This document shows, in pieces, positions 7,460-28,790 of a stretch of 64,000 bases of DNA. Under the pieces are notes generated by a model that was not told the origin of the DNA, did no database searches, and saw nothing but the letters and a program-made list of their open reading frames with translations. Position 1 is the first letter of the stretch. Each line of letters opens with the position of its first letter. Position numbers and translations under genes: made by a program. Source of the DNA: Pseudalkalibacillus salsuginis (GTDB lineage: Bacteria; Bacillota; Bacilli; Bacillales; Fictibacillaceae); NCBI RefSeq assembly GCF_021646685.1, contig NZ_JAKJHW010000004.1, positions 124,001 through 188,000 of the forward strand. The letters run 5' to 3'.

Positions 7460-8467
7460 ATGAGTTTTTTTAAACGATTGAAAAATAAATTGACGACCCA
7501 AAGCGATACGGTTACTGAAAAGTTCAAAGATGGCCTGACAAAAACAAGAGCCTCATTTTCAACCCGTATCAATGACCTTGTAAAAAATTATCGTAAAGTA
7601 GATGAAGAATTCTTTGAGGAATTAGAGGAAATCTTGATAGAGGCAGACGTCGGTGTATCGACCGTGATGGACCTGATCGATGAGCTGAAGGACGAGGCAA
7701 GGACCCAGAACATCAAAGAAACCGAGGAGCTGCAAGGCGTCATTTCAGAAAAACTTGCGGAACTCCTTGATAAAGGCGATGATGATACCAAGCTAAACAT
7801 CCAGGAGGATGAACTGACAGTTATCTTGTTCGTTGGCGTCAATGGTGTAGGGAAGACGACTTCCATCGGTAAGCTTGCACATAAGCTTAAACAGGAAGGC
7901 AAATCTGTTTTGATGGCAGCGGGCGACACATTCCGTGCAGGGGCGATCGATCAGCTGCAAGTATGGGGTAACCGTGTCGGGGTCGACGTCATCAAGCATA
8001 GTGAAGGAGCAGATCCTGCAGCTGTCGTGTTTGATGCAGTGAAATCAGCGAAGACACGGGGTGTAGACGTACTGTTATGTGATACAGCTGGAAGACTTCA
8101 AAACAAAGTCAACTTGATGAATGAGCTTGAAAAGATCAAAAGAGTGATTGGGAGAGAACTTCCAGGAGCTCCGCACGAGGTCTTGCTTGTGGTAGATGCC
8201 ACAACTGGCCAGAACGCCATGAATCAGGCGAAAACGTTCAGCCAGGCGACAGACGTGAGTGGCATCGTGTTGACAAAGCTTGACGGAACCGCGAAAGGTG
8301 GCATCGTACTGGCAATCCGCCACGAGCTGGAAATTCCGGTCAAGCTCGTCGGTTTAGGGGAAAAAGTAGAGGACCTCTATGAATTCGATGCCGATCAATT
8401 CGTCTATGGACTCTTCTCAAACATCCTGCCAAATGTAGAGGAAGAAGAATCGGTAGATCGTTATTGA
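7460..8467 (+). CDS. ftsY: Signal recognition particle receptor FtsY
   Basis: GTPase receptor at the membrane that docks the SRP-ribosome complex to the Sec channel. The 335 residues begin [11 protein letters not shown], an amphipathic basic N-terminus. They then show the N domain and the G domain with GVNGVGKTT (126-134), DTAGRLQ (208-214) and TKLDG (272-276). A GTG at 7451 is in frame, but the ribosome site gaggtggag overlaps it, and ATG 7460 gives the conserved start. Its partner Ffh is encoded 0.7 kb downstream. Confidence 0.97.
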
Positions 8468-8468
8468 G

Positions 8469-8501
8469 AAGGGACGATCCTGACAGGGGTCTCCCTTTAT
8501 T
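8469..8501 (+). terminator. Probable terminator after ftsY
   Basis: aaggga (8469-8474) pairs with tccctt (8492-8497), with additional inner pairing, followed by tatttat. It lies directly after the ftsY stop and immediately before a 21-bp tandem array. Confidence 0.55.
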
Positions 8502-8516
8502 TATGCCTAACAGACG

Positions 8517-8650
8517 TTTACCAATACCTTTCAAGCGTTTACCGATAAATTATTGTGTGTTACCAATATTTTCACACCTATTACCAACATTTTTTTAAGC
8601 AATACCAATATTTTTGATGCTTTTACCGATATTTGTTGTAAAATTACACC
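8517..8650. repeat. Tandem array with an exact 21-bp period (array 1)
   Basis: Degenerate units sharing a core taccaatattttt start at 8519, 8540, 8561, 8582, 8603 and 8624, every 21 bases without slippage. A weaker seventh (tacacc) starts at 8645, and a trace lies near 8498. The invariant part is tacc(a/g)a, followed by a T-rich tract and a variable end. The 304-bp ftsY-ylxM gap holds the terminator, this array and the ylxM promoter, and nothing else was recognised. Twenty-one bases are two DNA helical turns, so each unit faces the same side. Confidence 0.85.
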
Positions 8651-8709
8651 CTCACCACTTGAGAAAAATGGCTGCAATCCTAGTTGAAAACTAATGTTAA
8701 GAAAAAAAC

Positions 8710-8738
8710 TTGACAAAGGTTTTTGTGGGGTGTAGTAT
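8710..8738 (+). promoter_or_regulatory. Candidate sigma-A promoter of ylxM-ffh
   Basis: A perfect -35 TTGACA (8710-8715) is followed by a 17-bp spacer and TAGTAT (8733-8738, 4/6 to TATAAT); an alternative -10 TATGAT lies at a longer spacing. It is 43 bp upstream of the ylxM start and downstream of the 21-bp array. Confidence 0.6.
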
Positions 8739-8780
8739 GATTAATCGTAAAGGCATTTCGCTTAACAAGGGGTGGAGAAA

Positions 8781-9110
8781 GTGCTTGAGAAAACGACACG
8801 AATCAATCTATTGTTTGATTTTTATCATGCGCTTCTAACTCCGAAACAGCGGAATTATATGGCGCTTTATTATCTCGATGATCTTTCCCTTGGAGAGATT
8901 GCCGAGCAGTATGAAGTTAGCCGCCAAGCAGTATACGACAACATCAAACGAACAGAATCAATGCTCGAAGAATACGAAGCAAAGCTTGAACTTCTCGGAA
9001 AGTATCAGACGAGGCAGCAGCTTTTGGCGAAATTGTGTCAACAGGTTGCTGAAGAAAAGAATCAGAAAGAGTTGCTCGATACGATCGATCGTATCGAGAA
9101 ATTGGATTAG
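8781..9110 (+). CDS. ylxM: YlxM family SRP-associated helix-turn-helix protein
   Basis: A 109-residue protein of the YlxM/p13 family, encoded beside ffh in Firmicutes and, in streptococci, shown to modulate the signal recognition particle. It has a sigma-70 region-4-like helix-turn-helix ([21 protein letters not shown], about 33-53) and a C-terminal helical tail. Start GTG 8781 is chosen over GTG 8772: the ribosome site aaggggtgg lies at the right distance, and the protein then begins [15 protein letters not shown], like its relatives. It ends 13 bp before ffh. Confidence 0.9.
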
Positions 9111-17611: not shown

Positions 17612-17755
17612 GTGAACTTTATAAGCGGATATAGAATTATATAAGCCTGAATTCAAATTTTATGAACATAGATTGAAATTTTATAAGCTGATTTTCAAAA
17701 ATATATGTAATTTTCCTGATATTGCGAGCCAAAATATTGAAATTCGCCAGAAATC
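17612..17755. repeat. Tandem array with a 20-21 bp period (array 2)
   Basis: AT-rich units with cores ataagc (17621), ataagc (17641), atgaac (17662), ataagc (17683), atatgt (about 17703) and gcgagc (about 17724), each followed by a (g/c)anttnaaatt tract. Steps are 20, 21, 21, about 20 and 21. The sequence differs from the 8519-8650 array but the geometry and the setting are the same: terminator before, promoter after. It fills the roughly 300-bp gap before sucC. Confidence 0.75.
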
Positions 17756-28684: not shown

Positions 28685-28790
28685 TTATGAGACCCTGAAA
28701 ATGGGGAAAACGAATTTTGAAGGACTTATGACCGCTTTATGAGACCCTGAAAATGGAGAAAACAGATTTTGAAAGCACTCATGAGTGAAA
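28685..28790. repeat. Tandem array with a 41-42 bp period (array 3)
   Basis: The 20-mer ttatgagaccctgaaaatgg occurs at 28685 and 28737, each followed by (g/a)gaaaac and a attttgaa tract. Further ttatgacc (28726) and tcatgag (28779) starts give steps of 41, 11 and 42. The unit equals two 21-bp half-units. The rest of the 680-bp codY-flgB gap holds the terminator, dyad sites, a promoter and otherwise nothing recognised. Confidence 0.6.

Follow-up and report, generated by a model that had tools for sequence, protein, structure and literature searches.

A row of six repeat units with an exact 21-bp step, followed by a short end piece, lies in the ftsY-ylxM gap of Pseudalkalibacillus salsuginis, and we confirmed that this array is genuine. 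It was analyzed within a 64,000-nucleotide stretch of contig NZ_JAKJHW010000004.1 (referred to as the window). Each unit joins a conserved motif of about 13 bp to a random spacer, and copies of the motif are dispersed over other gaps of the same genome; conservation of motif and step is seen best in a sister family of arrays, designated A. Judging from these sequence patterns, we lean toward the view that the array is a phased track of asymmetric sites for a polymerizing, putative DNA-binding protein. The protein as reader, its polymerization, and its action at gene ends are what we infer.

The array in the ftsY-ylxM gap

The gene order around the array is smc, ftsY, array, ylxM, ffh. Units beginning with TACC start at 8519, 8540, 8561, 8582, 8603, and 8624, and TACACC starts at 8645; by direct reading every step is 21, as the first-pass annotation had reported for its six units. 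Identity at lag 21 over positions 8517 to 8650 is 64/113 (0.566), compared with 0.305 (sd 0.050) in 2000 first-order Markov shuffles. The array's score was matched by 0/2000 shuffles, at lag 21 or at any of the scanned lags from 8 to 60, and thus the autocorrelation anticipated in the annotation is present. The identity at lag 42 is 0.609, and the top lag outside the multiples of 21 gives 0.409. The array is absent from the list of Tandem Repeats Finder run with a minimum score of 30.

All units lie on the plus strand. Unit 1 (8517..8537) is TTTACCAATACCTT followed by the spacer TCAAGCG, unit 2 (8538..8558) is TTTACCGATAAATT with ATTGTGT, unit 3 (8559..8579) is GTTACCAATATTTT with CACACCT, unit 4 (8580..8600) is ATTACCAACATTTT with TTTAAGC, and unit 5 (8601..8621) is AATACCAATATTTT with TGATGCT. 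Unit 6 (8622..8642), TTTACCGATATTTG, overlaps the start of the end piece, TGTAAAATTACAC, a small palindrome on the same strand (8637..8649). The sequence that had been taken for a weak seventh unit at 8645 is present, but it is actually part of this end piece.

The ftsY gene (7460..8467, plus strand) ends 49 bp upstream of unit 1 and is followed by a terminator-like stem with a T-rich tail (8476..8499, plus strand), which was identified by a consensus scan only (2 found versus 0.3 in shuffles). About 60 bp beyond the end piece, a sigma-70-type promoter-like site (8710..8738, plus strand) precedes ylxM-ffh; the corresponding scan found 2 sites versus 1.7 in shuffles and is by itself no evidence of function. 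The ylxM gene (8781..9110, plus strand) is listed as an open reading frame from 8772, and the start at 8781 is our choice. Most of the family genomes inspected show a AAAAAACTTGACA stretch between ftsY and ylxM. The array itself is non-coding, located between the two genes and crossed by no long listed open reading frame. We also considered a coding origin, in which the O reverse strand would encode a heptapeptide NIGKxxx; inspection by eye shows stop codons in this frame of the window array. Families with a 20-bp period cannot consist of repeated codons, and sister families have periods of 20 and 41 bp.

Two further repeats were observed in the window. A second phased array at 17612-17690 has TATAAGC/TATGAAC cores at 17620, 17640, 17661, and 17682 (steps of 20, 21, and 21), and a motif of genome G004, TTATGAACCYAGAT, which has a step of mostly 20, resembles these cores. 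At 28685-28790, a 52-bp repeat (TTATGAGACCCTGAAAATGG...) is present in two copies and has the second repeat size described by Subirana and Messeguer.

Unit anatomy and dispersed copies

We defined the motif of the window array, O, as TTTACCAATAWWTT plus 7 free bases and searched for it with a two-unit pattern allowing up to 3 mismatches. The array's own genome (G000) has 17 O matches at 7 places (one each on contigs C7 and C16, three on C18, and two on C19; reversed control 0). Alkalihalobacillus sp. YIM B00296 (G005), of the same genus, has 27 matches at 9 places (controls 0), and six O places are common to the two genomes. Although the pattern was found in 5/60 genomes with the own genome counted, three of these (G010, G038, and G054) have a single 3-mismatch match each, which is the control level. 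Among the matches dropped, those from Prochlorococcus and Alphaproteobacteria resemble chance or coding matches, and one from a Planctomycetota MAG (L061) is a long, near-perfect 21-bp TTTTACCGGCAGCTTGATCTG repeat, coding-like by eye, probably coding, and unrelated to O.

In the 67 distinct O units of G000 and G005, positions 1-14 hold about 18 bits of information, positions 15-21 little or none, and positions 19-21 about 0. Spacers are as different within arrays as between them: across the nine G005 O arrays, spacer identity is 0.262 within arrays (83 pairs) versus 0.275 between arrays (778 pairs), and motif identity is 0.769 within versus 0.767 between arrays. The corresponding spacer identities are 0.293 and 0.304 in the A arrays of G010 (14 arrays, 57 units) and 0.373 and 0.376 in its arrays of another motif family, B (10 arrays, 39 units). 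Therefore, the units are not recognizable as tandem duplicates, and a unit is a conserved motif attached to a random spacer.

The first-pass annotation had interpreted the array as an element upstream of the ylxM-ffh promoter. A special role at this promoter was not supported: the motif occurs in six other gaps of the own genome, and the two-unit pattern, at its sensitivity, detected no O array in any of the six other same-genus genomes. The expectation that close relatives would keep the spacing in this gap was borne out in the nearest relative, G005, which retains the ftsY-ylxM O array, but not in the other same-genus relatives; of their ftsY-ylxM gaps, three score highest at lags 48, 47, and 52, two have no lag that exceeds the shuffle line, and one is too short for scoring. 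At one of the G005 places (L048, G005:C79:13135-13232), an O array is located directly 3′ of the stop of a purF-like gene (by eye), with a co-oriented open reading frame downstream; because of these neighbors, this array is perhaps within an operon.

Other motif families with the same geometry

The ftsY-ylxM gap was compared across 30 genomes, in 26 of which it is long enough for scoring. Lag 21 or 42 is above the 95% line of shuffles in G000, G005, G010, G018, G020, and G016, and other lags are above the line in G006 (48), G003 (47), and G001 (52). The gaps of the g4 genomes G010 and G018 contain motif A (AATCACATAAAAA), as five units apiece whose spacers have diverged, and those of the g4 genomes G016 and G020 contain a B-type motif with a GGAT core; by eye, both motifs are unrelated to O. 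By eye, too, G012 and G014 have a single A unit each. Two-unit A matches were found in 16/60 genomes, all of them g4 (16 of 18 g4 genomes, with G028 and G033 lacking matches; reversed controls 0), and two-unit B matches in 15/18 g4 genomes searched (controls 0).

The own genome holds several families, among them O (step 21), AGTTGT (step 20), and further motifs in the survey described below. For AGTTGT (AGTTGTYGRGATAAT), a third family, this genome has 41 two-unit matches at step 20 but a single one at step 21, compared with 36 and 0 in G005 and 2 and 0 in G006 (controls 0); no match at step 20 or 21 was found in the other 31 genomes searched. One orthologous gap has an O array in G005 and an AGTTGT array in G000, with flanks that are 93 and 96% identical. 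Two B arrays at unlinked places of G010 (L161 and L165) have two neighboring spacers in common, one exact and one matching at 7/8 positions, a sign that an array can spread by copying to another location. A different repeat type, with 48-bp arrays (about 4.5 turns) built on the palindrome GGTGCCAGGCACC, was observed in the ftsY-ylxM gap of G006 and elsewhere in G000 (L069, L193, and L198).

We also surveyed non-coding DNA independently of any motif. The sample comprised 702 non-coding segments from 73 pieces, each of twenty kb, that came from seven genomes of family f1, excluding three G000 pieces chosen for known arrays, and a segment was counted if it had an ungapped self-repeat of at least 27/42 at one lag between 12 and 70. 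By this threshold, 59/702 segments self-repeat versus 5.8 in shuffles, where the G001 set includes two deliberately chosen pieces around the ftsY-ylxM gap (one lag-52 match). The best lag is 20-21, 40-42, or 60-63 in 38 of the 59 segments (0.5 expected), 52 in 9, 48 in 3, and some other value in 9. In 40 pieces from eight other families, 13/343 segments match against 3.0 expected, and two-turn lags account for 7 of the 13 against 0.0 expected; thus the two-turn class is not confined to family f1. The survey counts include a few matches that look coding or low-complexity by eye. By type of gap, phased arrays in six f1 genomes were found in 10/91 convergent, 28/397 tandem, and 5/138 divergent gaps; divergent gaps do not differ significantly from the others (P = 0.12).

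Conservation of motif and step

Because arrays were collected by motif, part of the motif conservation is built into the A and O comparisons and into the step census. The A family provides ten groups of orthologous arrays in g4 genomes. In 24 pairs with equal numbers of units, which lack independence because some sequences enter more than one pair, differences occur at 65/1053 sites (6%) in motif positions 2-10 and at 374/819 (46%) in spacer positions 14-20. For O, 22 units were matched between G000 and G005, leaving aside those that lack a clear partner or bear indels; the matched units differ at 3/132 sites in core positions 3-8 and at 14/154 sites in the spacer (Fisher's test, P = 0.02), which suggests a modest constraint on O between these two genomes.

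The step was recorded for consecutive motifs up to 64 bp apart. In the A family, with 11 of 13 motif positions matched, 99/102 distances are 21, 2 are 20, and 1 is 52; the looser threshold of 10 of 13 gives 104 distances of 21 plus scattered other distances. Consecutive O motifs are 21 bp apart in 48/62 cases (4 at 20, 1 at 22, and 9 at other distances), and consecutive B motifs in 53/60. In aligned A arrays, 34 gaps were counted inside the arrays, of which 5 have a length divisible by 21; misalignment at array ends spoiled this count, and we give it no weight for or against the model. Together, these comparisons suggest that motif and spacing are kept and that the letters between them drift, in line with the first-pass annotation, which had proposed that the spacing persists as the sequence changes; in orthologous A arrays, motif and step are retained and spacers change. 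Any given array, however, is dispensable, because in six g4 genomes sampled without regard to motif, the ftsY-ylxM gap has a full A array in 2, a single A unit in 2, and a B-type array in 2.

End pieces and gene ends

Most arrays have an end piece specific to their family. In most O arrays, GTGTA-N4-TACAC or a diverged form of it is found at one end, with the L030/L046 pair being without an end piece. The last unit of A arrays is mostly ATAATTT-like, several B arrays start with a ACTCGTGGATAAA-type unit, and the seven AGTTGT arrays inspected have a variant unit at the end, followed by one further core. According to simple open reading frame calls, the end-piece side is toward a gene's 3′ end at 8/10 O places and 12/14 A places; for B arrays, the right-hand neighbor faces the array with its 3′ end in 6/10 cases and the left-hand neighbor, on the side of the special unit, in 7/10. 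Convergent gaps satisfy the 3′-end criterion by default, and in tandem gaps only, the end-piece side of A arrays is toward the 3′ end in 8/10 cases, a weak excess (P = 0.11). The window array departs from this pattern, as its end-piece side is toward the putative ylxM promoter.

A candidate mechanism and its alternatives

In the model that we propose, a putative sequence-specific DNA-binding protein would occupy six asymmetric sites along the array. The core of a site would be TTTACCAATA, or 14 bp with its A/T tail, and the 7 bp between sites would be free. Protein subunits would line up along the same helix face, each in contact with the next across two helical turns, and the end piece would probably start or stop the row. 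Rather than regulating ylxM, the row may act at gene ends, as an insulator, a nucleoid anchor, or a nucleoprotein block to readthrough. A step that stays exact although the spacer letters are free fits a protein that reads the motif and touches its neighbor two turns away; phased protein contacts on one face of the helix, one of the two possibilities raised by the first-pass annotation, are thus our best explanation, with the motif and step conservation of the A family in its favor. RNA structure, coding, and pure curvature fit less well than a two-turn protein row.

The other possibility raised there, intrinsic curvature, would have phased A/T tracts bend the DNA and selection act on the bend itself, for packing or for wrapping by gyrase or HU. 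The repeat lengths of 20, 21, and 52 bp are close to whole numbers of helix turns, and a wedge model predicts more curvature for the window array than for 500/500 shuffles; the median fraction of shuffles as curved is 0.01 for the 13 other O arrays and 0.00 for 13/14 A arrays (one was too short). Yet for the 10 B arrays, which are equally phased, this median is 0.30, and one alone falls below 0.05. Because the phased B arrays are mostly not curved, curvature is no common property of the arrays, and the earlier proposal stands for the predicted curvature of the window, O, and A arrays but not for B. Moreover, every phased repeat gains curvature, and a bend alone would require neither the C at positions 5 and 6 nor a family-specific core. 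We therefore regard curvature as an unlikely explanation. Decay of a minisatellite, that is, tandem duplication followed by functionless drift, would account for the nearly perfect repeats of some other array families and for orthologous O arrays of G000 and G005 that differ by whole units (5 v 6, 3 v 5). Such decay appears quite improbable, given that spacers in O (G005), A, and B (G010) are no more similar within arrays than between them, that dispersed arrays have the motif alone in common, and that the step is exact despite randomized spacers.

We give equally little credence to the view that the array is transcribed and acts as a small RNA or sponge, even though Subirana and Messeguer, who consider such a role for the class, report that 52 nt repeats are transcribed in B. 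coagulans (PMC8161180; PMC8625621). The folds of the window array RNA give z values of -0.99 and +0.21, with no signal on either strand, and no Rfam family matches positions 8300-8900 at its gathering score (the top match, with E of 0.023 and half the gathering score, is outside the array). Hairpins were considered, since the window spacers contain the complementary pairs GTGTG/CACAC and AAGCA/TGCTT, and were dropped: complementarity of adjacent spacers in O and A arrays is at chance level compared with shuffled spacers, in a test whose G005 O count includes one pair from a wrongly picked stretch (L068), and for B arrays the value is 241 of 2000 shuffles. An RNA role also leaves the exact step of 21 (or 20) bases unexplained. 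It is very unlikely that the arrays are remnants or targets of a mobile element, with multiple transposase-binding sites and a terminal end piece, or insertion hotspots. Relatives do have different array families in one gap, both between ftsY and ylxM and where O in G005 faces AGTTGT in G000; copying does occur, as in the two G010 B arrays with common neighboring spacers; and the one-ended cap is reminiscent of transposon ends. Against this view, no second end was seen, A arrays stay at orthologous places (10 groups), and viral contigs contain 0 exact matches to the O, A, and B patterns, for which a phage source was also dropped. A plasmid source was set aside as well, with six weak plasmid matches alone (E of 0.5 or more). 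The G005 counterpart of L029, a place with an array in G000 only, looks like a collapsed array with a remnant of the end piece rather than an empty site; for the G005 place L048, the G000 assembly yields no DNA match beyond the arrays.

Relationship to known repeats

Plasmid iterons are direct repeats about two turns apart, on which a Rep protein binds along one face. In contrast, the arrays are chromosomal and dispersed over many gaps, and the window array's neighbors are ftsY and ylxM, with no replication initiator gene among the adjoining genes. REP/BIME elements are dispersed, intergenic, and tend to lie 3′ of genes, but the array units are non-palindromic and have a fixed step of 20-21 bp. 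CRISPR arrays have spacers of about 26 bp or more, identical repeats, and cas genes nearby. The window array has 7-bp spacers, diverged repeats, and smc, ftsY, ylxM, and ffh as adjoining genes, and it does not resemble a CRISPR, in agreement with the first-pass annotation.

The stoperators of mycobacteriophage L5 and its relatives are likewise asymmetric sites, each a 13-mer, and many lie in short stretches between genes; one repressor reads many sites, and site orientation follows transcription (PMC9283540). They differ from the arrays in being scattered genome-wide without phased rows and in belonging to a phage rather than a chromosome (PMC9283540); in the arrays, orientation bias is weak and the reader is putative.

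The window array is a member of a published class of Bacillus repeats. Subirana and Messeguer (2021) described 4029 tandem repeats in 176 Bacillus genomes, of which 781 are of 20-21 nt and 1886 of 51-53 nt (PMC8161180). As reported there, the 20-21 and 52 nt repeats are non-coding and species-specific, with a constant size, a variable sequence, and several families per genome, and each repeat carries a short characteristic sequence (PMC8161180). The authors searched for at least 4 repeats with at least 60% of identical length (within 1 nt), compared the 52 nt repeats between B. coagulans strains, pointed out the two helix turns, and proposed a polymerizing protein or a small RNA (PMC8161180); the window array has six units, all of 21. 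The main text of that article presents no anatomy of motif and free spacer, end piece, comparison of motif with spacer, or gene context, and the words spacer, orthologous, intergenic, upstream, terminator, and purifying are absent from it. The anatomy and conservation tests reported here go beyond that main text, and we do not claim that they are wholly unpublished.

Overall, the interpretation in the first-pass annotation is partly supported. More tentatively, we conjecture that the arrays could be polymerization tracks of previously undescribed, fast-diversifying putative DNA-binding proteins, with one specificity per motif family, a start at the end piece, and two-turn stepping. Such tracks would mark about a hundred gene ends per genome (an extrapolation from 38 in the 1.46 Mb surveyed) and form a chromosome-wide insulator or nucleoid layer, in which one motif family replaces another in corresponding gaps of sister species. 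In the literature, the 20-21 nt Bacillus repeats stand as a puzzle, of constant size and with neither a shared sequence nor an assigned function. Their anatomy, with a constrained motif of about 13 bp, a free spacer of fixed length, a step of 20 or 21, and an end piece, offers a bait for the reader protein, which, if found, would represent a new way for bacteria to organize gene boundaries.
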